Shown: positions 13,419 through 26,444 of the stretch, piece after piece | Numbering within the stretch: the first letter of the stretch is position 1 | How the letters are laid out: every line of letters starts with the position of its first letter | Source: Bacteroidota bacterium | GTDB lineage: Bacteria; Bacteroidota; Ignavibacteria; Kapaibacteriales; Kapaibacteriaceae | NCBI GenBank assembly: GCA_018266735.1 | Contig: JAFDZT010000002.1 | Coordinates: forward strand, 298,439 to 362,438 | Reading direction: 5' to 3' | Length of the DNA stretch: 64,000 nt | Translations under genes and position numbers: made by a program | The notes under the pieces: model-generated | The model's input: only the letters and a program-made list of their open reading frames with translations | Databases searched by the model: none | Told to the model about the DNA's origin: nothing

Positions 13419-14117
13419 ATGTCAGACATTACCACCTCTTCGGCGTCTTCGCCAGTTCTACCGCTTGTACACAAGGTTGTGCGACCGTTCTTCTCTGTGA
13501 TCATCTGCACCTATAATCGTGCATCCTTGCTTCCTCGTGCGCTCGATTCTCTCCTTGACCAATCGGAACGCGATTGGGAGGCGGTGATCGTTGATGATGG
13601 AAGCACGGATTCCACGTGGCAGGTCATACAAAGGTACGCAGAGGCACACTCTCAAATACGGTCGGTGTATCACTCCAATCGAGGTATTCCCCGCTCACGC
13701 AATGCCGGCGTCCTCGCGGCGGCCGGTCTGTTCGTGACGTTCCTGGATTCCGACGATGCGTATCGGTGGGACCACCTTTCGGCACGCAAGCAGATGTTCC
13801 TCGAGTTTCCGACGGTGGAGTTCCTGCATGGTGGCGTGGAGATCATCGGTGAACCGTATGTGCCCGACAAGAACGAGCCATCACGTCAGATCCATCTGAA
13901 GGACTGCGTGATCGGCGGCACCTTCGTGATCCGCAAGGACACGGTGCTCCGTCTGGGTGGCTTCGATGCCGTGGACTATGCCGATGATGCACTCCTCTAC
14001 GAACGTGCGATGCGTGCCGGCATCTCGATCGCTCGCACCGATCATCCTTCGTACAAATACTATCGCGACACACCGGACTCCATATGCAACACACAGAGCG
14101 TGTCACCAAGATCCTGA
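13419..14117 (+). CDS. GT2 family glycosyltransferase
   Basis: A 232-residue GT-A fold transferase, probably adding a sugar to an envelope glycan. After a short variable N-terminus it shows PFFSVIICTYNRASLLPRALDSL, then VDDGSTDSTWQV and the metal-binding FLDSDDAY. A later acceptor-side Asp pair lies in DAVDYADDALLYERA. No membrane segment is present. The start at 13419 is chosen because an in-frame start at 13332 would read through the leader and overlap rsmG. The length is at the low end for the family. It overlaps nth by 34 nt. The acceptor and sugar cannot be inferred. Confidence 0.85.
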   Translation: MSDITTSSASSPVLPLVHKVVRPFFSVIICTYNRASLLPRALDSLLDQSERDWEAVIVDDGSTDSTWQVIQRYAEAHSQIRSVYHSNRGIPRSRNAGVLAAAGLFVTFLDSDDAYRWDHLSARKQMFLEFPTVEFLHGGVEIIGEPYVPDKNEPSRQIHLKDCVIGGTFVIRKDTVLRLGGFDAVDYADDALLYERAMRAGISIARTDHPSYKYYRDTPDSICNTQSVSPRS

Positions 14118-14728
14118 CACGATTGGCGGAGGCCTATCCCGATGCGCGTGTCGGATTGGACTTCACCTCGCCCTTCGAACTGCTCATTGCCACCATCCTC
14201 TCTGCACAGTGCACCGACGAGCGCGTCAACATCGTCACGCGAGATCTGTTCGCCAAGTATCACGGTCCGGCCGATTATGTGGCAACACCGCAAGAAGAAT
14301 TGGAGGTCGACATCCGATCGACGGGATTCTACAAGAACAAGGCCAAGAACATTCGCGCATGCTGTGCGGCTCTCATCGAACGATATCATGGTGAGGTGCC
14401 ACGCACCATCGAGGAGCTCATCACCCTACCAGGAGTGGGACGGAAGACGGCAAACTGTGTCTTGAGCAATTGCTTCGACATTCCGGCGCTGACGGTGGAC
14501 ACGCATGTGACGCGCATCGCAAATCTCTTGGGATTTGTGCAGACCACCGATGCGGTGAAGATCGAGTTCGCCTTGATGGATATCGTTCCCAAGGAACAAT
14601 GGAACGACTTCGATCGGCTGATCATCACGCACGGTCGACGCACGTGCATCGCCCGTCGACCGAAGTGCGATGTCTGTCCGATCCGCGACCTCTGTCCGGT
14701 AACCGATCCCGACGTGTCACGTTATTGA
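14084..14728 (+). CDS. nth: Endonuclease III, base-excision DNA glycosylase/AP lyase
   Basis: Removes oxidised pyrimidines and cleaves the resulting abasic site. The 214-residue protein carries the helix-hairpin-helix LPGVGRKTAN with catalytic Lys121 and catalytic Asp139 in TVDTHVTR. Four cysteines at 188, 195, 198 and 204 (spacing C-x6-C-x2-C-x5-C) bind the 4Fe-4S cluster. Length matches E. coli Nth (211). The gene begins inside the end of the GT2 gene, 34 nt before its stop, suggesting coupled expression although the functions are unrelated. Confidence 0.95.
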   Translation: MQHTERVTKILTRLAEAYPDARVGLDFTSPFELLIATILSAQCTDERVNIVTRDLFAKYHGPADYVATPQEELEVDIRSTGFYKNKAKNIRACCAALIERYHGEVPRTIEELITLPGVGRKTANCVLSNCFDIPALTVDTHVTRIANLLGFVQTTDAVKIEFALMDIVPKEQWNDFDRLIITHGRRTCIARRPKCDVCPIRDLCPVTDPDVSRY

Positions 14729-14789: not shown

Positions 14790-16823
14790 ATGAAGCAACG
14801 ACTCCTTAGCGTCCTCGCCGCCCTGCTCCTTTCCGCAGGCCTTCTTCCTGTCCATGCACAAGACGCACGTCCCGAGTATGGCATCATGGGTCAATGGCTC
14901 ATGAATCAGCATACGGGAGACTTCAAGAAACTTGGCTCCTATCCTTCGTGCTGTCCGGAATTCACAACGGGTTCCGGTAGTGGCCCGGGACTGGGCGCAT
15001 GGGTCGGCTTCCCGCTCTCGCCGTCGCTACGATTGCTCACGCGCCTCACCTATACCACCGAGAGTGGCGTCCTGCAAGACGATGAACGCTCCTTCGTGGC
15101 CGATCTTCGCGACACGAACAACCCCAAGGTCGTCGATGCGACGTTTCACCACGAGCTCACGGCCACGCTCTCCAGCATCGGTATTCAGCCCATGGTGGCA
15201 TGGCGAGCAGTGGGCGGGCTGGATCTTATGGGCGGCCTGCGTCTTGGATTCGTGACCACGTCCACGTTCCGTCAAACCGAAGTGCTCACACAGCCCGAGG
15301 ACTTTGGTGCCTATCTCGGCGCGGGGCGCACGTGGGTGGACACAGGCGGAGCCATTCCCGATGCCTCGTCGATCCGCGCCACTCTGAGCATCGGGGCACG
15401 TTATGTACTGCCACTTAATGCCGACCATTCCTTGTTCCTAGCGCCCGAGTTCACCTATCAGTACGCGCTGACCGGCGTCACGTCGTCGGTGAACTGGAAC
15501 GTCCACCAACTCAGTGCCGGACTCGGACTGGCCTGGTCGCCCGTCCCCGCGGCAGTTGTTGCACCACCCGTCCGCGATACCATCCCCCCACCGCCACCAC
15601 CCCCCATACGTCCGTTGCTTGCCGGTTCGGTCCGCATGGTCGGAGTGGAGGAAGGCGGCAAGGAAGCACCCGATGTGACCATTCGCATCGAAGAGGTGAT
15701 CGCCAGTGACCTCCGTCCGCTCTTGAACCATGTCTACTTCGACGAAGGATCTGCCCGCATTCCCGATCGGTACGTGGTCCTCGCACCATCGTCCACGTCG
15801 TCCTTCAGCGAAGACGGTTTGTATTCGACGACGACCATGGACACCTATCACACGATGTTGAACATCATCGGCAAGCGGCTCAGCGCCACGCCGGCGGCCA
15901 GCATCACGTTGACGGGATGTACATCGGAAGACGGATCGGATCGTGGCAACGACCTTGCGCGCAAGCGTGCCGAGGCGGTGCGCACCTACCTCACATCAGT
16001 GTGGGGCATCAGTGCAGATCGGATCTCCATCATGGCTCGCACGTTGCCGTCAAAGCCAACGCGCTCGAGCGCTGCGGCCGATGTGCAGATCGCATCGGAA
16101 GAGAACAGACGTGTGGAGATCGAGTCCAACAATGAGGCCATCCTCATGCCGGTTCGAACCACCGACACCGTACGGACGGCCAATCCGCCTGCCCTTCGCG
16201 TCTACACCGAGTCGAAGGCCCAGGCTGGTGTGAGGCGGTGGAACATCGACATCACGCAAGACGGAAAGAACCTCTATTCCACGTCGTCGGCACTCGTTGG
16301 CAGCACGACCGTACCCCTAAGCGTGGACTGGCGAGTGACGTCGGAACGCACCCTCGTACCGCGCACAGAGTCTCCCGTGGAAGCTCGGCTGACCATAGAG
16401 GATTCGAGCGGCGGCCTCTTGATCTCGCTTCCCGCGAAGGTTCCGGTACGTCAGCTCACCATTCAAAAGAAGCGTGTGGAGCGCATCGAAGACCGAGAGA
16501 TCGACCGATACAGCTTGATCCTCTTCGACTTCAACGATGCGAGCGTGAAGGGCCAGAACAGTGGCATCGTGCGACTGATCAAGGATCGCATCACGCCGAG
16601 CTCGACGGTGAAGATCAACGGCTATACGGACGTTCTTGGTACGGAGTCCTACAACGAGGAACTCTCACGAAATCGCGCCACCGAAACGGCCAGGTCGCTC
16701 GGTCTGCCTCCCACGTCAGCACAAGGACTTGGTGAGCAGCGACCACTCTATCCGAACACCCTTCCGGAAGGGAGGGCCTATAACAGAACTGTTACCGTAA
16801 CTGTGGAAACTCCTATCAAATAA
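14790..16823 (+). CDS. OmpA-family outer-membrane protein, paralogue 1, with two OmpA-like domains
   Basis: The 677-residue protein has a signal peptide (1-23, LLPVHAQ). A beta-barrel region runs to about residue 260 and contains a CCPEF motif at 54-58. A proline-run linker (about 263-275) leads to a divergent OmpA-like domain at about 309-450 (HVYFDEGSARIPDRY, LTGCTSEDGSDRGNDLARKRA). A second, more canonical OmpA domain lies at about 573-677 (LILFDFNDASVKG, INGYTDVLGTESYNEELSRNRA). OmpA domains bind peptidoglycan. The ATG at 14790 is preferred over the in-frame upstream ATG at 14757, because it starts a clean signal peptide and the upstream option overlaps the promoter box. A paralogue lies at 21233, with the VWA/WD40 gene between them. 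Confidence 0.88.
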   Translation: MKQRLLSVLAALLLSAGLLPVHAQDARPEYGIMGQWLMNQHTGDFKKLGSYPSCCPEFTTGSGSGPGLGAWVGFPLSPSLRLLTRLTYTTESGVLQDDERSFVADLRDTNNPKVVDATFHHELTATLSSIGIQPMVAWRAVGGLDLMGGLRLGFVTTSTFRQTEVLTQPEDFGAYLGAGRTWVDTGGAIPDASSIRATLSIGARYVLPLNADHSLFLAPEFTYQYALTGVTSSVNWNVHQLSAGLGLAWSPVPAAVVAPPVRDTIPPPPPPPIRPLLAGSVRMVGVEEGGKEAPDVTIRIEEVIASDLRPLLNHVYFDEGSARIPDRYVVLAPSSTSSFSEDGLYSTTTMDTYHTMLNIIGKRLSATPAASITLTGCTSEDGSDRGNDLARKRAEAVRTYLTSVWGISADRISIMARTLPSKPTRSSAAADVQIASEENRRVEIESNNEAILMPVRTTDTVRTANPPALRVYTESKAQAGVRRWNIDITQDGKNLYSTSSALVGSTTVPLSVDWRVTSERTLVPRTESPVEARLTIEDSSGGLLISLPAKVPVRQLTIQKKRVERIEDREIDRYSLILFDFNDASVKGQNSGIVRLIKDRITPSSTVKINGYTDVLGTESYNEELSRNRATETARSLGLPPTSAQGLGEQRPLYPNTLPEGRAYNRTVTVTVETPIK

Positions 16824-16895
16824 AGGCCTTAACTTTTCGCATATTGTTCGGTCTTTTGCGTGCCGTACGACTATGTAGAATTGAAAGAAGGCCTT

Positions 16896-19800
16896 ATGAA
16901 GCATCGACCTCGTTTTGCAGTAGTGGTCCTGTTCATCGTCCTGTTGGGCGTTGCAACACTGGACAGTTGGGCACAGGCCTTCGTTGTGCCGCGCCTCGTT
17001 ACCACCGCCTACCCCACGATGACAGCGGAGTGTTACAACTTCGACGCTCAGGGAGCCTTTGTTGCGCTTGGCGCAAAAGAGGTGACGGTGAAGGAGAACG
17101 GTGCGAACATGACCGTGACCACAACGTGTGGGAACGGACAGAGCACGCCTGCCTCCATCATGGTGGCCGTGGACCGATCCAGTGAAACGCTCACAAAGGC
17201 GAAGGCCGGCGCAGCGTCTGTGATCTCCGGCGTGGTCGGTCAGACCGATGAACTGGGGCTGATCTCGTTCAATCAAGCTCCCTCCCTCGAACAGGGGCTC
17301 ACGGTCAACAAAACGCAATACGCGTCACGCGTCTCGGCGATCACCGCAGGCACGAATGGCACTGCGATCAACATCGACTCCCTCTTTCACAATGCGCCGT
17401 TGGGTGCCTTCGCACAGCTCAAGAATGCACGGAACTTCCGCGCACTCGTGATCTTCGTGAGCGGAAACCCGTCGTTCGATGCGGCTCTGGCACGCAAGGT
17501 CGCAAAGCAGTATGCCATCAAGGTCTACGTGGTAGGGATCAACCTTCCGATCTCTGCACAACTGCGCGAACTCTGCGACAGCACCGGTGGTGCATGGATC
17601 GACGGCCTCATAAGTGATGACGACATCAAGGCCTATGCGTGGGCATTCGTTGCCCATGCGCGAGGCGTTCAACCATGCGCGGCCGTCTGGACGTCCACAC
17701 CTTCGTGTGCGTTGGAGCGTACGATCGAGGTGAAGCATGCGTCCACCACACGATCCTTCACCATACCCGCGCCGATCGGTTCACGTATCGTTCTCGAACT
17801 CAGTGAACCCGGAATTGCCTTTGGTGAAGTTGCTCCCCCGCAGACCGTCACGAAGTCGGTGATCCTCACCGTCCGCAACGGTTTTGCGCGGGTGACCGCC
17901 TACACCAGTTCGAATCCGCGCTTCGCGGTAACGCTGCCAACAGGACCGGTGGACATGGTCCCCGGCGCCAGCCAAGAAGTAAAGGTCAAGTTCACACCAA
18001 CCGACAGTAGCGGACAGTTCGGAACGATCACCTTTGTCTCTGCCGACGCGTGCGACACGACCGTGCTCTATGTACGCGGCGGTTTCCGGAACAAGGACAA
18101 CAACCTGAAGGTGCTCTCCCCGAATGGCGGCGAGAAGTATGTTGCCGGGATCGACACGCTGATCCGATGGACCGGTACGTTGCCGCAAGACATCGTGCGC
18201 ATCGATGGCTCTGAAGACGATGGCGCAACGTGGAGTTCGATCACGGAAGCGGCGTCCGGAAATGAATACGTCTACACGCCCGGACCCAATGCCACGAAGA
18301 AGGCGCTCATTCGCATTCAACGCACACTGCTCGACCCCTCTGATATCATCGTCCTTTCCGGTTCTGAGAAGCCCATCTACACAGCCGCACTTTCGAACGA
18401 CAGTAAGACGGCCTATACGGGCGGACACGATGGAACGGTGCGCGTATGGGATGCAGAAACAGGTCTGCAACGGCGCGTGATGACCGGACATTCCGACTGG
18501 GTATGGGGTCTTGCCGTCCACCCTTCGGCGAACATGATCGCCAGCGCAAGTCACGATGGTACGGTCCGTTTCTGGGACCCCACAACGGGAACACAACTTG
18601 GTGCCGTGCCGGTGACGGGTCGTGCCTGGTCCGTGGCTTTCAATGCGAATGGGGATTCGCTCTATGTCTCTTCGGATGCAGGCATTATCATCATCGACCC
18701 TGCCTCCTTCACCATCGTTCAGAATGTTCCGACCACCGATGGCGCCATCGTCTATTCGGTGCGAGTATCACAAGACGGAACGCAGCTCGTCACGTGCGAA
18801 GGCAACACGGTTCGTTTGCGCGAAGCAACGGGTGACCTTGCCATCAAGCGCTCCTTCGTCGGACACGTTGGACCGGTCTACAGTGCCGATGTGAACGTGA
18901 ACGGTCAAGTGGTGGTCTCCGGTGGTGCAGACCTCATGCTCCGTCGGTGGGATGCCTCGAATGGCACGCAGACGGGATCCACACCAGCCATGACGGGTTC
19001 GTTGCTCTCGGTTCAATTCAATCGCGGCGGCGGGCAGGTGTTGACAGGCTCGGGAGATGGTACGGCAAAGTTCTTCGAGACCAATACACTGAATGAACTC
19101 AATGCCTTGGCCGGACACACCGGACTCGTCTACAGTGCACGGTACAACTCCGCCGGCGACAAGGTCATCACGTCATCCACGGACTTCACAGCACGTGTCT
19201 GGAACATCTCGGGCATCCGACTGGATGAAGACAAGAGCGATGCAGTGTTCGAGATCCAGGGATCGACGGCAACAACGCAAGACGTGGAGTTCACGCCGGC
19301 CATTGAAGTTGGCGGTAGTGCCCGACAAACAGCCGTTGTGTTCCGGAATACCGGCGCAACGCCGATCGTAGTACAGGGCGCACGCTTCACGACTGGCGAC
19401 CAAGGCGACTTCAATATCATCTCGCCGGTGTTTCCGGTGACCGTCGCTCCCGGCGCTACATCGTCGCTCACACTCACCTTCCAACCAACGCAGGTTGGTG
19501 ACCGTTCGACGACACTGTTGTTGCAAACGGGAACAGGTCCGCGCACCCTTACTGTTCGCGGTACCGGCAAGCTTCCGGTGCTGAACGTGATCTCGGTGAT
19601 CGACTACGGTCGCCGCATCGCCAACCTTGCACAGATCGACACGAATGTTCGCGTGGCATTGCCCATCGGCGTCACGAGTCCGGTGCAAGTGAAGTCAACG
19701 GCCATTGTCGGACCCGATCAAGCACAGTTCTCCATCGTCAGTGGTGGCGCACCGTTCACGGTTTCGAACAATGGCACGCAGACCATTGTGGTTCGATTCG

Positions 19801-21230
19801 CACCATCGCAAAACGGACGTGCTGCTGCAGATCTGGTGATCACCTCAACGGACGATCGCACGGTGACCGTGCATCTCTACGGAGAAGGTACCGGCGACGC
19901 ACGGTTCCAAACCGTTGCACCGGTGGTCTTCCCGCTCGATGTGTGTAGCAGCGATCCGGTGGCAGAGACCTTTAACGTGACCAACATCGGTAACTCGACA
20001 CTCATCCTCTACAGTGGGATCATCGATGGAACCGATGCCGTTGACTATACGCTTGAACGCGTTGGCGCACCGCTCACCTTCCCCATCGAAGTCGAGGCAA
20101 GCAAGAGCGTGCAGTTCCGCGTGATCTTCGCGCCGAAGTCGATCGGCGCGAAGAGCGCTCGTGTGGTGTTCAGCTCGAATGCCATCAATGCATCGAACGG
20201 ACTCACGGCTGTCACCCTTGTTGGCCGAAAAGACTCCGTCGCCTTCGAACTCTCTCGTTCTTCTGTGACCTATGCAGATGTAGCGCAGGGCGAAACTCCG
20301 GTGGAGACGGTGTACCTGATCAACCGAGGATCCATCATCCTGCGTTGGCCCAAGACACCGATCGATCTCGGTGATTTCGTGATCGAGAAGATCACGCCGG
20401 ACATCGTCCAACCCAACCAACAGTCGGAAGTGACGATACGGTTCAAGGGCGGCAAGGAAGGAAGTGTGTACACGACATCCTTTGTGTTCACAACACAGGA
20501 CACGGCATGTGGCAGACGGGATACGCTGCAACTGACGGCCTTCGTGAATGCCGTTGTAAGTGTGACACTTCGCATGGACACGATCCGTTCGCACACGGGT
20601 GCCATCGTCTCGGTCCCGCTGTATGTGACGAACAAGCAGCACTTGGATCGGACAACTGTTCGCATCATCCACGCCGATCTGCTCGTCAATGCCTCCATCC
20701 TCCAACCGAGCGGTTCATTGCCCATGGGTCAGTTGGACTCTACCGGAAAGATCCGTCGTATTCCCGTGGTGATCCCGATCCCCGAGGGCTCGGACTCTCT
20801 GGCCATGACATTGCAATTCTCGACCACGTGGGGCAACGACACGATGTCGGTGATCAACGTGGCCAACTTCACCGAGATCGACACGATGCGTGTATTGGTA
20901 CGCCAAGGTGGAGTGATCCTCGACGATCTATGCACGCAAGGTGGCGTGCGACTCTTCCAGCTGCAGCCAAATGCCGCAGGCATCGTCGCCTCACCACAAC
21001 CGTCAACCGGTGCGACCGTGCTTGACATGGAAGTGGTGGAGAAGGGTATGACCACTGTGGAACTCGTCGACATGCAAGGACGAACCCTTGCCACCCTCGT
21101 CCAACGTTCCCTTGCTCCCGGCTCGTATCGCGTTCCGATGAATGTCTCGCAACTCCCTGCCGGAGTGTACTTCCTGCAGATGACCACGCCAACAGAGCAC
21201 AAGAGTGTACGATTCGAGAGAGCTAAGTAA
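16896..21230 (+). CDS. Secreted VWA / seven-blade WD40 / choice-of-anchor protein with T9SS C-terminal domain
   Basis: A 1444-residue protein. A signal peptide (residues 2-27, DSWAQA) is followed by a von Willebrand A-like domain at about 88-260, whose MIDAS is degenerate (DRSSE instead of DxSxS; VSGNPS where a DG motif is usual). Then come an immunoglobulin-like anchor domain, a WD40 propeller at about 485-776 with seven countable blades (GGHDGTVRVWD, SHDGTVRFWD, GGADLMLRRWD, GSGDGTAKFFE, SSTDFTARVWN and two weak ones), and more choice-of-anchor repeats. A T9SS type A-like sorting domain ends the protein at about 1362-1444 (VELVDMQGRTLATL, LPAGVYFLQM). The ATG at 16896 has an AAAGAAGG site before it. 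Two nt separate it from the second OmpA gene. Probably a surface or secreted protein; the partner is unknown. Confidence 0.88.
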   Translation: MKHRPRFAVVVLFIVLLGVATLDSWAQAFVVPRLVTTAYPTMTAECYNFDAQGAFVALGAKEVTVKENGANMTVTTTCGNGQSTPASIMVAVDRSSETLTKAKAGAASVISGVVGQTDELGLISFNQAPSLEQGLTVNKTQYASRVSAITAGTNGTAINIDSLFHNAPLGAFAQLKNARNFRALVIFVSGNPSFDAALARKVAKQYAIKVYVVGINLPISAQLRELCDSTGGAWIDGLISDDDIKAYAWAFVAHARGVQPCAAVWTSTPSCALERTIEVKHASTTRSFTIPAPIGSRIVLELSEPGIAFGEVAPPQTVTKSVILTVRNGFARVTAYTSSNPRFAVTLPTGPVDMVPGASQEVKVKFTPTDSSGQFGTITFVSADACDTTVLYVRGGFRNKDNNLKVLSPNGGEKYVAGIDTLIRWTGTLPQDIVRIDGSEDDGATWSSITEAASGNEYVYTPGPNATKKALIRIQRTLLDPSDIIVLSGSEKPIYTAALSNDSKTAYTGGHDGTVRVWDAETGLQRRVMTGHSDWVWGLAVHPSANMIASASHDGTVRFWDPTTGTQLGAVPVTGRAWSVAFNANGDSLYVSSDAGIIIIDPASFTIVQNVPTTDGAIVYSVRVSQDGTQLVTCEGNTVRLREATGDLAIKRSFVGHVGPVYSADVNVNGQVVVSGGADLMLRRWDASNGTQTGSTPAMTGSLLSVQFNRGGGQVLTGSGDGTAKFFETNTLNELNALAGHTGLVYSARYNSAGDKVITSSTDFTARVWNISGIRLDEDKSDAVFEIQGSTATTQDVEFTPAIEVGGSARQTAVVFRNTGATPIVVQGARFTTGDQGDFNIISPVFPVTVAPGATSSLTLTFQPTQVGDRSTTLLLQTGTGPRTLTVRGTGKLPVLNVISVIDYGRRIANLAQIDTNVRVALPIGVTSPVQVKSTAIVGPDQAQFSIVSGGAPFTVSNNGTQTIVVRFAPSQNGRAAADLVITSTDDRTVTVHLYGEGTGDARFQTVAPVVFPLDVCSSDPVAETFNVTNIGNSTLILYSGIIDGTDAVDYTLERVGAPLTFPIEVEASKSVQFRVIFAPKSIGAKSARVVFSSNAINASNGLTAVTLVGRKDSVAFELSRSSVTYADVAQGETPVETVYLINRGSIILRWPKTPIDLGDFVIEKITPDIVQPNQQSEVTIRFKGGKEGSVYTTSFVFTTQDTACGRRDTLQLTAFVNAVVSVTLRMDTIRSHTGAIVSVPLYVTNKQHLDRTTVRIIHADLLVNASILQPSGSLPMGQLDSTGKIRRIPVVIPIPEGSDSLAMTLQFSTTWGNDTMSVINVANFTEIDTMRVLVRQGGVILDDLCTQGGVRLFQLQPNAAGIVASPQPSTGATVLDMEVVEKGMTTVELVDMQGRTLATLVQRSLAPGSYRVPMNVSQLPAGVYFLQMTTPTEHKSVRFERAK

Positions 21231-21232
21231 CC

Positions 21233-23263
21233 ATGAGAACCATGACACGACTTCCCCACTTCGCATCTGCACTGTTCCTGATCGTTGCCACAACGACCGT
21301 TGCACAAGTCCCGAACGACCCATTGCTCCGTCCGCGTATCGGTCTGTTCTTTGACTACGCTCTTGGCATTCATGCCGCTTCCTTCACGCAACTGCCTGAT
21401 GTGGCCAATTGCTGTCCGGAATTCCAGACCACCATGGGAACGGGCTTCTTCGCGGGTCTGCAGTATGAGCAACCATTCAACAAGGATCTCGCTCTGTATA
21501 TGCGTTTGCACTACGGTTCCTATGGCGTGGACTTTTCGCAGACGGAGTCCAAGCCCGTTGCGTTGGCGGATGGATCCACCACCAATGCAACGATCCGTCA
21601 CGACCTCAATGGTTCATTCGGTCAGATCAGTGTAGAGCCACTCTTGGCCTATCACGTCTCGCCGGAGTTCATGGTTCGCGGTGGACTGACGGCGGGCTAT
21701 GTGTTCAGTGCGACCTACGATCAGAAGGAAGTACTGGAGACGCCGGCCAACGCAACGTTCGTTGGCGGATCGCGCATGCGCAACGCATCGAGCGGCGATA
21801 TCAAGAATGCCTCGTCCGTTGCCGTAGGCATCACGGTGGGCGCATCGTATGAACTTGCCTTGAATGCCGATCGAACGATCTTCCTCACACCCGAAGTGCT
21901 CTTCACGTATTCACCCATTCCGGTGGTGAGCGGGCTGTCGTGGAATGCCCATCAGATCCGTGCCGGTTTGGCACTATCGTTCATTCCGCCCGAGGTCGAG
22001 GATACGCTTTCCGACATCGAACTCTACAACTTCGCAACGGCCATCACACCACCAAAGACCGTGTCGGCATCGGTTCCGTTCACATCCGACATCACGGCCA
22101 GCGGTATCGGCACAACTGGCGAACGTCTTCCGGCCGAACGCATCAGAATGGAAGAGTTCTCATCGACGCGGGTCCGTCCGGTGTTGCCCTACGTGTTCTT
22201 CGACAAGAATTCGTCGGAGATCCCGGCCCGGTATACCGAGCTCAATCAGGATCAACGCGACGTGTTCGCCATCGAGAACTTCTACAATCTCGATGCCATG
22301 ATCACTTACCATCACGTGCTCAACATCATCGGCAAGCGCATGCAGGATGATGCGAATGCAACGATCACGCTCACCGGTTGTGTTGACAACACGGATGCAG
22401 AATTGAACAACACGGCATTGGCGCAAGCACGGGTGAATGCGGTTCGCTCCTACCTCGTCGACAAATGGGGCGTCGCCCCAGCACGCGTCCAAACCGCAAC
22501 ACGACTGCTTCCGGAGCAGGCCTCGAACTCTGCCGAGCTTGATGGTCAGGCAGAGAATCGTCGTGTGGAGATCTCAGCCACCAGCGATGCGATCCTCGCG
22601 CCGATCATGTCGCGCGACACGATGCGTTCGTTCACGCCGGCCGGTCTTCGCTTCGCACCTGCCGTTACACCTCGTGTTCCGGTGAAGTCGTGGACGATCT
22701 TCGTCACAGCGGATGATCGCATCATCAAGACCTTCCATGCCGGCGACCCTGTACCGGCATCGGTGGATTGGCGCATCGACGAAGCACAGCTCGCCATCCC
22801 GAGCGACGTTGAGAAGCTCGGCTACTTGTTCGTCGCACGCGATTCGGCCGGACTGGTCATTCCTTCGGAGTCGAAGAAGATCCAAGTGGAAGCGGTCACG
22901 CTCGCATCGAAGAAGCAAGGCGGCATGGCGGACAAGGCCGTGGATCGTTATTCGCTGATCCTGTTCGGCTTCGACAAGTCAGACCTCACGCCCGCAAATG
23001 CTGCCTTCGTGAACCAGATCAAGGCGAACATTCAACCAACATCGCAAGTGAAGGTGATCGGCTATACGGATCGGAGCGGATCGGATGATTACAATCAACG
23101 TCTGAGCCAGTCACGCGCATCAACGGTCGCACGCGCGCTCGGCTTGCCTGAGTCGCAGGCCACGGGCGTTGGTGAACGTGCTCCGCTCTATAACAACGAT
23201 ACACCGGAAGGTCGCTTCTACTCACGAACAGTAGAAGTTCTTGTCGAGACACCGAAGAAATAA
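21233..23263 (+). CDS. OmpA-family outer-membrane protein, paralogue 2, with two OmpA-like domains
   Basis: 676 residues with the same plan as the gene at 14790. It has a signal peptide (ending TTVAQ), a barrel region with CCPEF at 60-64, a divergent OmpA-like domain from about 316 (YVFFDKNSSEIPARY, LTGCVDNTDAE) and a canonical OmpA domain from about 573 (LILFGFDKSDLTPANA, VIGYTDRSGSDDYNQRLSQSRA). Both paralogues end in the same style (RTVEVLVETPKK here, RTVTVTVETPIK there). It starts 2 nt after the VWA/WD40 gene stop, and its own stop overlaps the next ATG (TAATG), so the four genes look like one transcript. It presumably anchors the outer membrane to peptidoglycan. Confidence 0.88.
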   Translation: MRTMTRLPHFASALFLIVATTTVAQVPNDPLLRPRIGLFFDYALGIHAASFTQLPDVANCCPEFQTTMGTGFFAGLQYEQPFNKDLALYMRLHYGSYGVDFSQTESKPVALADGSTTNATIRHDLNGSFGQISVEPLLAYHVSPEFMVRGGLTAGYVFSATYDQKEVLETPANATFVGGSRMRNASSGDIKNASSVAVGITVGASYELALNADRTIFLTPEVLFTYSPIPVVSGLSWNAHQIRAGLALSFIPPEVEDTLSDIELYNFATAITPPKTVSASVPFTSDITASGIGTTGERLPAERIRMEEFSSTRVRPVLPYVFFDKNSSEIPARYTELNQDQRDVFAIENFYNLDAMITYHHVLNIIGKRMQDDANATITLTGCVDNTDAELNNTALAQARVNAVRSYLVDKWGVAPARVQTATRLLPEQASNSAELDGQAENRRVEISATSDAILAPIMSRDTMRSFTPAGLRFAPAVTPRVPVKSWTIFVTADDRIIKTFHAGDPVPASVDWRIDEAQLAIPSDVEKLGYLFVARDSAGLVIPSESKKIQVEAVTLASKKQGGMADKAVDRYSLILFGFDKSDLTPANAAFVNQIKANIQPTSQVKVIGYTDRSGSDDYNQRLSQSRASTVARALGLPESQATGVGERAPLYNNDTPEGRFYSRTVEVLVETPKK

Positions 23264-24378
23264 TGCGACTGCTCGTTCTGAACTGGCAGGATCGCACGCA
23301 TCCGCAAGCGGGCGGTGCGGAAGTACACCTGCATGAGATCTTTTCGCGCATGGTAGAGCGTGGCCACGAGGTCACGCTCTACTGTTGTGCCTATCCCGGT
23401 GCTCCGGAGACCGAAGTGTTGGACGGGATCACGGTCATTCGCCATGGTTCGCGCGCAACGTTCAACTGGACCGTGCGGGGCGCCTACAAGAAACGGTTCG
23501 CGAACGAACGGTTCGATATCGTGATCGATGACATCAACAAGATCCCGTTCTTCACACCGCGGTTCGTGAAGAGACCGTTGTTGGCCATCGTGCATCACTT
23601 CTTTGGCACCAGCATCTTTCACGAGGCCGGCCGGCTTGCCGGACTCTATGTGAAGTATTTCGAGGACAAGATCGGGCGCGTTTATCGGAACACCCCTATC
23701 TGTGTTGTTTCCGACTCAACGCGGAAAGAGTGTATCGAACGCGGCATCCCTGCTGCGAACCTCACCGTCATCCACAATGCCATCGACCATACGCACTTCC
23801 CGATGAAGGTGGGCGAGAAGGATGCACGTCCGACGATCGCGTATTTCGGTCGACTCAAGCGCTACAAATCGGTCGACCACTTGCTTCGTGCCGTCGCCAT
23901 GGTCGTAAAGACCATTCCTACCGTACAGGTGCATATTCTGGGAACCGGCGATGGAAGGGACGAATTGGAGCGACTCGTGTCGATGCTTGGACTGCAAGAC
24001 CACGTGCGTTTCTTTGGCTTTGTAACCGATGCACAGAAAGTGGAATTGTTGTCCCAAGCTCACGTCGTTGTCAACACGTCGATCAAAGAAGGCTGGGGCA
24101 TCACCAACATCGAAGCCAATGCCTGTGGTACGCCGGTGATCTCTGCAGATGTTCCGGGTCTGCGAGACTCTGTGCGCGATGGTGAATCCGGTCTGCTGTA
24201 TCCCTATGGCAACATCGACGTCCTCGCCGCGCATATCGTCCGCGTATTGGTGGATCGCCCGGAACGCGAACGCCTGTCTGCAGGCGCACTGCGTTGGGCC
24301 AGCACCTTCACATGGGAACGGTCCAGCCGTGAGATGCAAGATCTTTGCGAGCGAGTGATCGCACACTATCGTCCATAG
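23263..24378 (+). CDS. GT4 family glycosyltransferase
   Basis: A 371-residue GT-B fold retaining glycosyltransferase. The N-terminal acceptor lobe begins MRLLVLNWQDRTHPQAGGAEVH. The C-terminal lobe includes IAYFGRLKRYKSVDHLL and the donor-binding segment EGWGITNIEANACGTPVIS, where the two glutamates are spaced as in GT4 (E-x7-E). The start codon shares its A with the upstream stop (TAATG). Its position behind two OmpA proteins and before another exported protein raises the possibility that it glycosylates a surface protein, but this is inference; a lipid-linked glycan is equally possible. Confidence 0.88.
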   Translation: MRLLVLNWQDRTHPQAGGAEVHLHEIFSRMVERGHEVTLYCCAYPGAPETEVLDGITVIRHGSRATFNWTVRGAYKKRFANERFDIVIDDINKIPFFTPRFVKRPLLAIVHHFFGTSIFHEAGRLAGLYVKYFEDKIGRVYRNTPICVVSDSTRKECIERGIPAANLTVIHNAIDHTHFPMKVGEKDARPTIAYFGRLKRYKSVDHLLRAVAMVVKTIPTVQVHILGTGDGRDELERLVSMLGLQDHVRFFGFVTDAQKVELLSQAHVVVNTSIKEGWGITNIEANACGTPVISADVPGLRDSVRDGESGLLYPYGNIDVLAAHIVRVLVDRPERERLSAGALRWASTFTWERSSREMQDLCERVIAHYRP

Positions 24379-24383
24379 GCGTC

Positions 24384-26444
24384 ATGACGCGTCGACTCTC
24401 CATCATCGTCCTTCTTCTCCTTGCCACCCTCCCATTGGCGTCGGCTCCGTTGAAGGACAGCAAGGGGAAGGATTTCTGGATCGCCTTCATGCCGAATGCG
24501 CATTCGTTCAGTGTCGGAACGCTGATCGTCTTCGTCACGGCAGAACAGCCAACGACGGGCACCATCACGTATGTGAACCGACGCGGACAGACGATCAACG
24601 TGCCGTTCTCGATCGCAACCGCCAACGCTGAGTATCGCCTCTCGATCGCATACCAAGACCTCGAGCTGGACGGATACGACTACAATCTGCGACGTCAGAA
24701 CGATGAAGAAACAGCCGTGCGTTACTCCATGCATGTGGTGTCGAATGAAGAAGTGACGGTCTACGCGGAAGCGCGTGAGCAGACGAGCACCGATGCATGG
24801 CTTGTCTATCCGACCGACGTGCTCGGCACGGACCATATCGTGCTGTGTTACTCTTCCGACGGCGAGTACGGGCGCTTGCGAGGCGGAGGCTTTGGGATCA
24901 CGCGTGACTATCCGAGTCAGTTCTGCGTGATCGCCACTCAGAACAACACGCGCGTGACCATTACGAATTCGGCCGGAAGATCTCCCACGGGAACGTGGAA
25001 GGAGAAGACCATCACTCTCCAGGCCGGTCAAGTGTACCTCGTGCAGGCCGAGATACGACAAGGGATCTTGAACGACGATCTTACCGGGTCACGTGTGAGT
25101 GCCACGAAGCCCGTGGCCGTGATCGCAGGTGTCGTGCGCACGGAACTACCACGCTTGGATGAGAACAATGCATCGCGAGATTGTTTGATCGAGCAGATGC
25201 CGCCCACGTCGACGTGGGGCTTGAACTCCATCATCATTCCGCCAAAGCCGGCAAACGATCAACAACTCATGGGCCCAACAGATGGGCCACGCTACCGCAT
25301 CATTGCTGCCGAGAACAACACGTCGATCACGATCAACGCTACACAGCGCTTAACGTTGTCGTCCGGACAGTACTACGAGGGCATCCTTTCCGATCCGAAG
25401 GTGGTGGAGGCCGACAAGCCGATCCTCGTTGCATCCTATCTGCGAACATCGCAGCGAGCTGGTGCGGCCAATGGCGATCCGTCGATGTTCCTGAATCCGC
25501 CCACGGAGCAGTTCCTCAACACGTACACGGTGATCAACATCGAACCCGATGATAGGTCACCCTACTACACCCAACACTTGATCACGCTGATCGTTCGCAC
25601 GGCCGACACCAATGCGGTACGGATCGATGGGATCCAGCCCGCGTCGACCTTTGTGCCGGTTGCAGGCACCAGCTATTCGTACACGCATGTGAGCGTGCAA
25701 CGAGGTCCTCACACGCTGACGTGTCCCACCGGCTTCGGCGTCTACATCTATGGCTATGGTGTTGCAGAGTCGTACGGCTACATTGGCGGCATGGCCTTCG
25801 AGCGACTGCGTATCCCTCGCGTTCAACTCGTCGTGCACGATACGACGGCCGCCCCGGGTGACAGTGCGGCCATTGTGGTGACGTATCAAGGCGTGAGCGA
25901 TTCCGCATCGTTCTTTGCCTTGGGCATTCACACCATGAAGGGCGAACTCGCATGGAATGCCACGCAGTTCATTCCGCTTCCTGTGGAAGGTCGTCACACT
26001 CGATCGGACACACTACTGCTCCCGATCGACGTCAACTTCGACACACTGAAGATCGGCGATACGTTGTATCGGCTCCCCGGACGGATCGTTCTTGGGAATA
26101 CAAGTATGGACTCGGTGTATTTGCGCTCGACATCGTGGTATGATGCTGCCGGCGATTCGATGGACATCGTTACCGACGTCGACAACGGCGCGATCACACT
26201 CTCGAAGATCTGTCGCGATACGGCTGCTCGTCTCTTCGATCCGGATGTTGCCATGCAGTCCATGATGATCGACGTCGTCGACGTTACCGGTCGCGCCTTC
26301 ACGACATTCTCGGTGGAACCACCGGCTGCATCTCGTGACGTGGCAGTGCTGTTACGCCAGCACGGTGTTCCCGCCGGACTGTGGTTCGCCATCGAGCGTC
26401 GCACGACGAGCCATGTGGTTCACCGCATCGCATTGCAAGAATGA
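24384..26444 (+). CDS. IgGFN-binding-domain-like exported protein with T9SS-like C-terminus
   Basis: 686 residues with a clear signal peptide (MTRRLSIIVLLLLATLPLASA). The region after it (GKDFWIAFMPNAHS, then repeated motifs such as WLVYPTDVLGTDHIV and CVIATQNNTRVTITNS) resembles the IgGFN-binding family, found in secreted adhesin-like proteins. The final 70 or so residues (IDVVDVTGRAFTTF, VPAGLWFAIERR) look like a T9SS sorting domain. The ATG at 24384 is 5 nt after the glycosyltransferase stop; an upstream in-frame start inside that gene would spoil the signal peptide. The stop overlaps the next ATG by four bases. It is likely a cell-surface protein; ligand unknown. Confidence 0.78.
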   Translation: MTRRLSIIVLLLLATLPLASAPLKDSKGKDFWIAFMPNAHSFSVGTLIVFVTAEQPTTGTITYVNRRGQTINVPFSIATANAEYRLSIAYQDLELDGYDYNLRRQNDEETAVRYSMHVVSNEEVTVYAEAREQTSTDAWLVYPTDVLGTDHIVLCYSSDGEYGRLRGGGFGITRDYPSQFCVIATQNNTRVTITNSAGRSPTGTWKEKTITLQAGQVYLVQAEIRQGILNDDLTGSRVSATKPVAVIAGVVRTELPRLDENNASRDCLIEQMPPTSTWGLNSIIIPPKPANDQQLMGPTDGPRYRIIAAENNTSITINATQRLTLSSGQYYEGILSDPKVVEADKPILVASYLRTSQRAGAANGDPSMFLNPPTEQFLNTYTVINIEPDDRSPYYTQHLITLIVRTADTNAVRIDGIQPASTFVPVAGTSYSYTHVSVQRGPHTLTCPTGFGVYIYGYGVAESYGYIGGMAFERLRIPRVQLVVHDTTAAPGDSAAIVVTYQGVSDSASFFALGIHTMKGELAWNATQFIPLPVEGRHTRSDTLLLPIDVNFDTLKIGDTLYRLPGRIVLGNTSMDSVYLRSTSWYDAAGDSMDIVTDVDNGAITLSKICRDTAARLFDPDVAMQSMMIDVVDVTGRAFTTFSVEPPAASRDVAVLLRQHGVPAGLWFAIERRTTSHVVHRIALQE

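Follow-up and report, generated by a model that had tools for sequence, protein, structure and literature searches.

Two routes have been described by which cargo proteins of the type IX secretion system (T9SS) are retained at the cell surface, namely linkage to anionic lipopolysaccharide (A-LPS) and PorP-like binding, both from work on Porphyromonas gingivalis and Flavobacterium johnsoniae. The first is the fate of P. gingivalis cargos with a type A C-terminal domain (CTD), which PorU attaches to A-LPS; the second is represented by SprB-SprF and PG1035-PorP-PorE (PMC9143113), in which a cargo with a type B CTD is served by a cognate 14-strand barrel of the FadL type. A different kind of bond is found between SprF and GldK, where a twin-cysteine motif with an internal disulfide is attacked by the thiol of its partner, and permanent disulfide bonds joining one periplasmic protein to another are said to be almost unknown (PMC12635249). 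The analysis reported here concerns a window of 64,000 nucleotides (the whole stretch of DNA that was analysed, from contig JAFDZT010000002.1 of a member of the Kapaibacteriaceae), and within it three adjacent genes, P1, P2 and P3, of which P2 encodes a T9SS cargo and the other two encode barrels with OmpA domains.

This locus resembles the SprB-SprF and PG1035-PorP-PorE systems (PMC9143113) in combining a T9SS cargo with a cognate outer-membrane barrel, often from adjacent genes, in having several cargo-specific paralogs per genome and in a PorE-like link to peptidoglycan. It differs from them in the tail of its cargo (which matches a type A model), in the size of its barrel (8 strands), in the fusion of OmpA domains to that barrel and in the cargo-anchor disulfide that is proposed below. 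With P. gingivalis type A cargos it shares a TIGR04183-type tail and the presence of PorU and PorV in the genome, whereas attachment is here proposed to occur via a partner barrel and a cysteine ahead of the CTD. Specifically, P3 (and perhaps P1) would be an anchor in the outer membrane and peptidoglycan that is dedicated to one T9SS cargo and holds it by a surface disulfide, a reading to which we assign a probability of roughly 0.6. A slightly bolder proposal, towards which we still lean, is that of a lineage-wide display system in which cargos are fixed covalently, through a pre-CTD cysteine, to the twin-cysteine extracellular loop of a dedicated wall-binding barrel, as a third way of attachment besides A-LPS linkage and non-covalent PorP-type binding.

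The original prediction, made from the letters of the window, had described the trio as a candidate outer-membrane display apparatus, which fits the gene linkage, the T9SS tail, the T9SS machinery of the genome and the combination of barrel and peptidoglycan-binding architecture. Its interpretation is supported in part and is now extended by about 17 barrel loci in the genome, by covariation of the CCPEF motif with a cysteine ahead of the tail and by the same cysteine motif in a neighbouring IgGFc-binding protein. The features of the trio are as follows; gene calls are simple longest-open-reading-frame calls, so that start positions are approximate.

14790..16823, + strand: P1, 677 residues, barrel with two OmpA domains (domain matches, relatives)
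14949..14954, + strand: P1 twin cysteines C54-C55 (SCCPEF) in loop 1 (sequence; aligned with P3 C60-C61)
16896..21230, + strand: P2, 1444 residues, T9SS cargo with signal peptide, von Willebrand factor A (VWA) domain, choice-of-anchor domains, WD40 propeller, further choice-of-anchor domains and CTD (domain matches)
17157..17582, + strand: P2 VWA domain, residues 88-229 (PF00092, 30.0 bits, cut-off 23.8)
18345..19208, + strand: P2 WD40 propeller, residues ~484-771 (PF00400 and related models)
19248..20915, + strand: P2 ASH / choice-of-anchor D domains, residues ~785-1340 (NF012200, 93 bits; PF22544, PF15780)
20931..20933, + strand: P2 Cys1346 in the pre-CTD motif DLCTQGGVRLF, proposed disulfide partner (ortholog alignment)
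20994..21227, + strand: P2 T9SS sorting domain, residues 1367-1444 (TIGR04183, 27.6 bits, cut-off 23)
21233..23263, + strand: P3, 676 residues, barrel with two OmpA domains, putative cognate of P2 (domain matches, AlphaFold2 model)
21323..21988, + strand: P3 8-strand barrel, residues 31-252 (AlphaFold2 model, solved-structure matches)
21410..21415, + strand: P3 twin cysteines C60-C61 (NCCPEF) in loop 1, between strands 1 and 2 (model; covariation with the cargo cysteine)
22172..22579, + strand: P3 first OmpA domain, residues ~314-449 (PF00691; Pal-like fold)
22928..23257, + strand: P3 second OmpA domain, residues ~566-675, with D613 and R628 (PF00691)

Recurrence of the cargo-barrel pair and its cysteines

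A scan of a genome collection with four members of the barrel family as queries gave 79 loci; with few exceptions these belong to records that carry the label Candidatus Kapaibacterium, Ignavibacteria, Chlorobiota or Bacteroidetes metagenome-assembled genomes (MAGs). Full-length relatives of the barrels were present in every family sampled from the order and in a few further families within the class; the remaining families gave only weak matches, which for the most part reflected the OmpA domain. The genome that holds the window (3.35 Mb) encodes about 17 barrel relatives, and about 11 of these start at most about 25 bases from, or overlap, the end of a T9SS-type gene on the same strand, as do most of those in related genomes; if the chance per gene is guessed at 3-5%, such adjacency has a probability on the order of 1e-11 or less. 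The P1-P2-P3 trio thus exemplifies a recurring pattern in which a cargo gene is followed by a barrel gene, the partner proteins being varied (WD40, kelch-like, SBBP or choice-of-anchor). At the locus itself, the order of nth, P1, a WD40 cargo of ~1440 residues, P3 and a GT4 glycosyltransferase gene is repeated in at least 10 diverged genomes, contig ends allowed for, in which the P3 orthologs are 47-55% identical. Because this order is kept in relatives at 36-55% identity, the linkage of P1, P2, P3 and GT4 is not a matter of chance, and the possibility raised with the original prediction, that the genes might prove unlinked in relatives, can be set aside.

Most barrels carry twin cysteines within the motif LPGxPNCCPxF, and the cargos paired with these carry a lone cysteine in a CxxGGxRL-type motif (for example DICREGGPRLF), which lies 20-22 residues ahead of the CTD in 35 of 42 cases. 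For comparison, 80 of the 137 T9SS tails matched in the window's genome were sampled, 79 of them usable; none of these 79 other tails has the strict CxxGGxRL motif (in four, a cysteine occupies a roughly comparable position), nor does any of them show a TP[TSN] signature that is found in the last part of the CTD in 22 of 43 cargos with the cysteine. Altogether 47 of 57 motif-bearing genes lie immediately upstream of a barrel gene, the others being orthologs of the neighbouring gene P4 (see below), tandem or downstream cargos in barrel clusters and one antisense false positive. Several cargos that lack the cysteine keep the motif with N, S or W in its place (GLNHAGGTRL, ISYAGGARL, VWRYQDGRSRL).

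The presence of the cargo cysteine follows that of the barrel cysteine closely. Across 121 pairs, taken from two genome collections that are partly redundant, the cargo has its cysteine for 96 of 98 barrels with the loop cysteine and for 0 of 23 without it; one of the two exceptions (L311) is only apparent, being masked sequence (N). Clustering at 50% barrel identity, with the masked row dropped and L040 scored strictly as lacking the motif, left 68 non-redundant pairs, in which the cargo cysteine accompanies 48 of 50 cysteine-bearing barrels and 0 of 18 cysteine-less ones (p 1.5e-14). The barrel column most strongly associated with the cargo cysteine is C60; the runner-up, at 2.5e-9, marks the background level that shared ancestry produces and is weaker by about five orders of magnitude. 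Barrel cysteines beyond residue 300 show no association (p 0.3), C383 alone a weak one (p 0.001); nor is there any in a control window of the cargo that lies further upstream, and within the CTD there is a weak trend in the opposite direction. Since pairs with and without the cysteines occur side by side in the window's genome, and also in MAG JANYIG, the covariation is not a genome-wide trend, and genome-wide cysteine richness was ruled out as its cause on this ground and on that of the null result in the control window. In the trees, whenever pairs diverge in the loop cysteine, they diverge in the same way in the cargo cysteine.

Variants of the arrangement were recorded at individual loci. 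At L036:3009-9003, a 1700-residue DUF7948/SBBP T9SS cargo is followed by a 293-residue barrel that has the CC motif and no OmpA domains, and L034:1067-12777 contains two divergently oriented barrels, neither with a cargo gene upstream; three tandem genes of ~523 residues lie beside one of the two. A clade of cysteine-less barrels, represented by L042:7359-11121 and its orthologs (L275-L283, L289), has cargos with mostly Trp or Tyr at or beside the position of the motif cysteine, for example NVWRYQDGRSRLVN. Extra cargos with the cysteine motif are found at L066:2-4756, L067:367-4413, L089:11135-16297 and L092:11092-16248, placed either immediately after a barrel gene or two to three genes ahead of one, and one barrel may therefore serve two cargos.

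Architecture of the barrels and of the T9SS cargo

The original prediction of two paralogous barrel proteins, each with a CCPEF motif and two OmpA-like domains, holds: the motif is present in both, and PF00691 matches twice in each of P1 and P3 (67 and 77 bits, cut-off 27), with an additional OMP_b-brl_2 match in P3. An AlphaFold2 model of P3 contains an 8-strand barrel (mean predicted local distance difference test score, pLDDT, 91.9), which matches the solved structures of NspA (Z 16.9) and of the barrels of OprF (Z 15.9) and OmpA (Z 15.6); P3 also matches OmpA/Pal domains, including 3td5, an OmpA domain with a peptidoglycan peptide (Z 14.3). The twin cysteines C60-C61 sit in an ordered loop of this model, and loop 1 is predicted to be extracellular, provided that the N-terminus and the OmpA domains are periplasmic. 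Residues D613 and R628 of the second OmpA domain, which we take to be the positions of the peptidoglycan-binding Asp and Arg of OmpA domains, are kept in 52 of 52 relatives, the Asp often being missing from the first OmpA domain. By its modelled barrel fold and this Asp/Arg pair, P3 is classed as an OmpA-type tether between outer membrane and peptidoglycan, with peptidoglycan binding predicted. It shares with OmpA and OprF an 8-strand barrel followed by an OmpA domain with conserved Asp and Arg, and differs from them in its two OmpA domains, the CC loop motif and the linkage to a T9SS cargo. A lone cysteine, C383 (22379-22381; TLTGC), lies in the first, periplasmic OmpA domain of P3 and recurs in 36 of 52 relatives; it could be a second disulfide site.

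Membership of two described families was considered. P3 shares with PorP/SprF proteins the adjoining gene for a cognate T9SS cargo, and was ruled out as a member by its 8 strands (against the 14 of FadL-type barrels) and by the lack of a match to the PorP/SprF model TIGR03519. That model is not among the best 25 NCBIfam matches of P1 or P3, so that any hidden match would lie far below the cut-off, and it has no match in the genome at E 0.001, a level at which control genomes were silent too. The comparison with PorE that had been drawn from the sequence stands at the level of the OmpA domain and fails at that of the family, the PorE model NF052230 scoring 30 and 39 bits (39 for P3) against a cut-off of 600. 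By analogy, the P2-P3 system would work in the manner of the PorP-like anchors of type B cargos; its different barrel size, fused OmpA domains and type A-like tail place it outside that group.

The domains originally ascribed to P2 (VWA-like, WD40, anchor domains and a T9SS-like tail) are all recovered by PF00092, PF00400, choice-of-anchor models and TIGR04183, and the doubt whether its tail is a T9SS sorting domain is answered by the score of the last of these. The metal site (MIDAS) of its VWA domain is degenerate in the window (DRSSE, no TDG) and intact (DxSxS, TDG) in several orthologs. Cys1346 is invariant in 11 of 11 orthologs, and also in A4; in a structure model of the C-terminal part of P2 it opens a disordered linker (pLDDT <50) between the last Ig-like domain and a CTD predicted to have seven strands. 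Five cysteines, an odd count, are invariant among the orthologs, and C78/C261 form a further pair that is gained or lost jointly. Foldseek searches with the C-terminal half of P2 returned mainly generic Ig-like and ASH arrays. The type B CTD model TIGR04131 is absent among the matches of P2 and has none in the genome at E 0.001 (control genomes silent too).

The same genome encodes SprA (820 bits), PorU (820 bits) and a PorV family protein (306 bits), so that a working T9SS is likely, and P2 is classed by its tail and by this machinery as a type A CTD substrate whose export and processing are predicted. The 137 T9SS-tail and 36 OmpA-domain matches look numerous for a genome of 3.35 Mb.

Proposed attachment by a disulfide and its alternatives

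Secretion, surface location, direct contact between P2 and P3 and the disulfide are the parts of the mechanism that we infer. P2 would be exported by Sec and then by the T9SS, and would be captured by its cognate barrel (P3, possibly P1), the 8 strands of which would span the outer membrane while the C-terminal OmpA domain grips peptidoglycan and the twin-cysteine motif of loop 1 is displayed on the cell surface. The cysteine in the linker ahead of the sorting domain would then attack, or pair with, a barrel cysteine, giving an intermolecular disulfide by which the cargo becomes covalently fixed to a wall-tied barrel, and other cargos, throughout the genome and the lineage, would be held by the same arrangement. 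SprF-GldK (PMC12635249) offers a chemical precedent for twin-cysteine disulfide bonding in the T9SS; there, as in PorG-GldK, a twin-cysteine motif belongs to a T9SS-associated barrel, and PorG has also been described as 8-stranded. In those pairs, however, the cysteines lie in a periplasmic tail and are bonded to a moving track, whereas here they are predicted to lie in an extracellular loop and the proposed partner is the cargo.

Several observations weigh against such attachment. The P1-type barrels and some others (L034, L039, L041 and several in relatives) have no cargo gene directly upstream, and there is one real exception to the covariation, the L040/L267 clade, in which a CC barrel accompanies a cargo without the motif cysteine. 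The trees, which were built quickly, count 5-6 changes per trait, of which 1-2 fall on well-supported branches, and a tree-aware test is not significant. Barrels and cargos that lack the cysteines still co-occur, and a disulfide is therefore not needed for pairing. The linear distance from cysteine to CTD is uninformative about contact, the CTD of P2 may be cut by PorU, and the support is computational throughout: gene pairing, cysteine covariation, the fold and the placement of the loop in models of single proteins, and conservation of the residues for peptidoglycan binding.

The persistence of pairing in cysteine-less pairs would suit barrels that are cognate but non-covalent anchors or receptors, with the three cysteines otherwise employed; C60 and C61 could bond each other as a separate structural bond, and the C-C plus C set could jointly bind metal. 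We regard this as unlikely, because the covariation of C60 with the cargo cysteine stands far above that of every other column, and because barrels with a single loop cysteine (L032, L089/L092, L330) are still paired with cysteine-bearing cargos, which fits one-to-one bonding better than a three-ligand metal site. It is distinctly improbable that the barrels are instead T9SS carriers, required for export and not for anchoring, to which SprA passes the cargo in the way that SprB is passed to SprF. The adjacency of cargo and barrel genes does recall sprB/sprF (PMC9143113), the paralogs are cargo-specific, and neither TIGR03519 nor TIGR04131 has a match in the genome (again with silent control genomes); but the barrels have 8 strands against the 14 of PorV and PorP (PMC9143113), PorV-family proteins are already present, the cargo tail is type A-like and the OmpA domains suggest tethering to the wall. 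Slightly less probable again is an operon of unrelated envelope proteins, in which the cysteine match would reflect the shared ancestry of co-inherited gene pairs: independent changes are few, deep branches are poorly resolved and other barrel columns associate as well (p ~1e-9), yet all 5-6 loop-cysteine changes on the best trees are mirrored in the cargo, the association of C60 is stronger than the ancestry background by about five orders of magnitude, and the motif is nearly confined to neighbours of barrels.

The preferred reading, attachment of the cargo by a disulfide, predicts a further attachment route in a little-studied lineage in terms that are concrete and open to mutation, namely three cysteines, and the joint signature of CxxGGxRL and barrel CC assigns cargos to their putative anchors. 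If true, an envelope protein family that uses such disulfides many times over would be notable. Nothing relevant on T9SS surface systems of Kapabacteria was found in the open literature (subscription papers not covered), and disulfide attachment of a surface cargo to a barrel is not known to have been described for the T9SS.

Neighbouring genes of the operon

The trio is flanked by the following features.

14084..14728, + strand: nth (endonuclease III), conserved upstream neighbour (Pfam HhH-GPD)
23263..24378, + strand: GT4 glycosyltransferase, conserved operon member (PF00534)
24384..26444, + strand: P4, IgGFc_binding protein with a shortened CTD-like end (PF17517, 221 bits)
26211..26213, + strand: P4 cysteine in KICRDTAARLFDP, the same pre-CTD motif (ortholog alignment)

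The spacing given in the original prediction was confirmed, with gaps of 72 nt between P1 and P2 and of 2 nt between P2 and P3, an overlap of one base (in TAATG) between P3 and GT4, and an IgG-binding-like protein thereafter. An ortholog of nth, 66-75% identical, precedes P1 in most relatives with contig sequence at that position, and GT4 (51-68% identical) lies directly after P3. In genomes with a P3 ortholog, one-base overlaps of cargo with P3 and of P3 with GT4 are near-universal, and P4 is usually the next gene. The motif cysteine of P4 is present in every ortholog compared; most of these orthologs lack the PNP motif in the shortened CTD-like end and keep the pre-CTD cysteine. With the same cysteine motif placed ahead of a shortened tail in P4, two barrels and two cargos may share the operon in the window.

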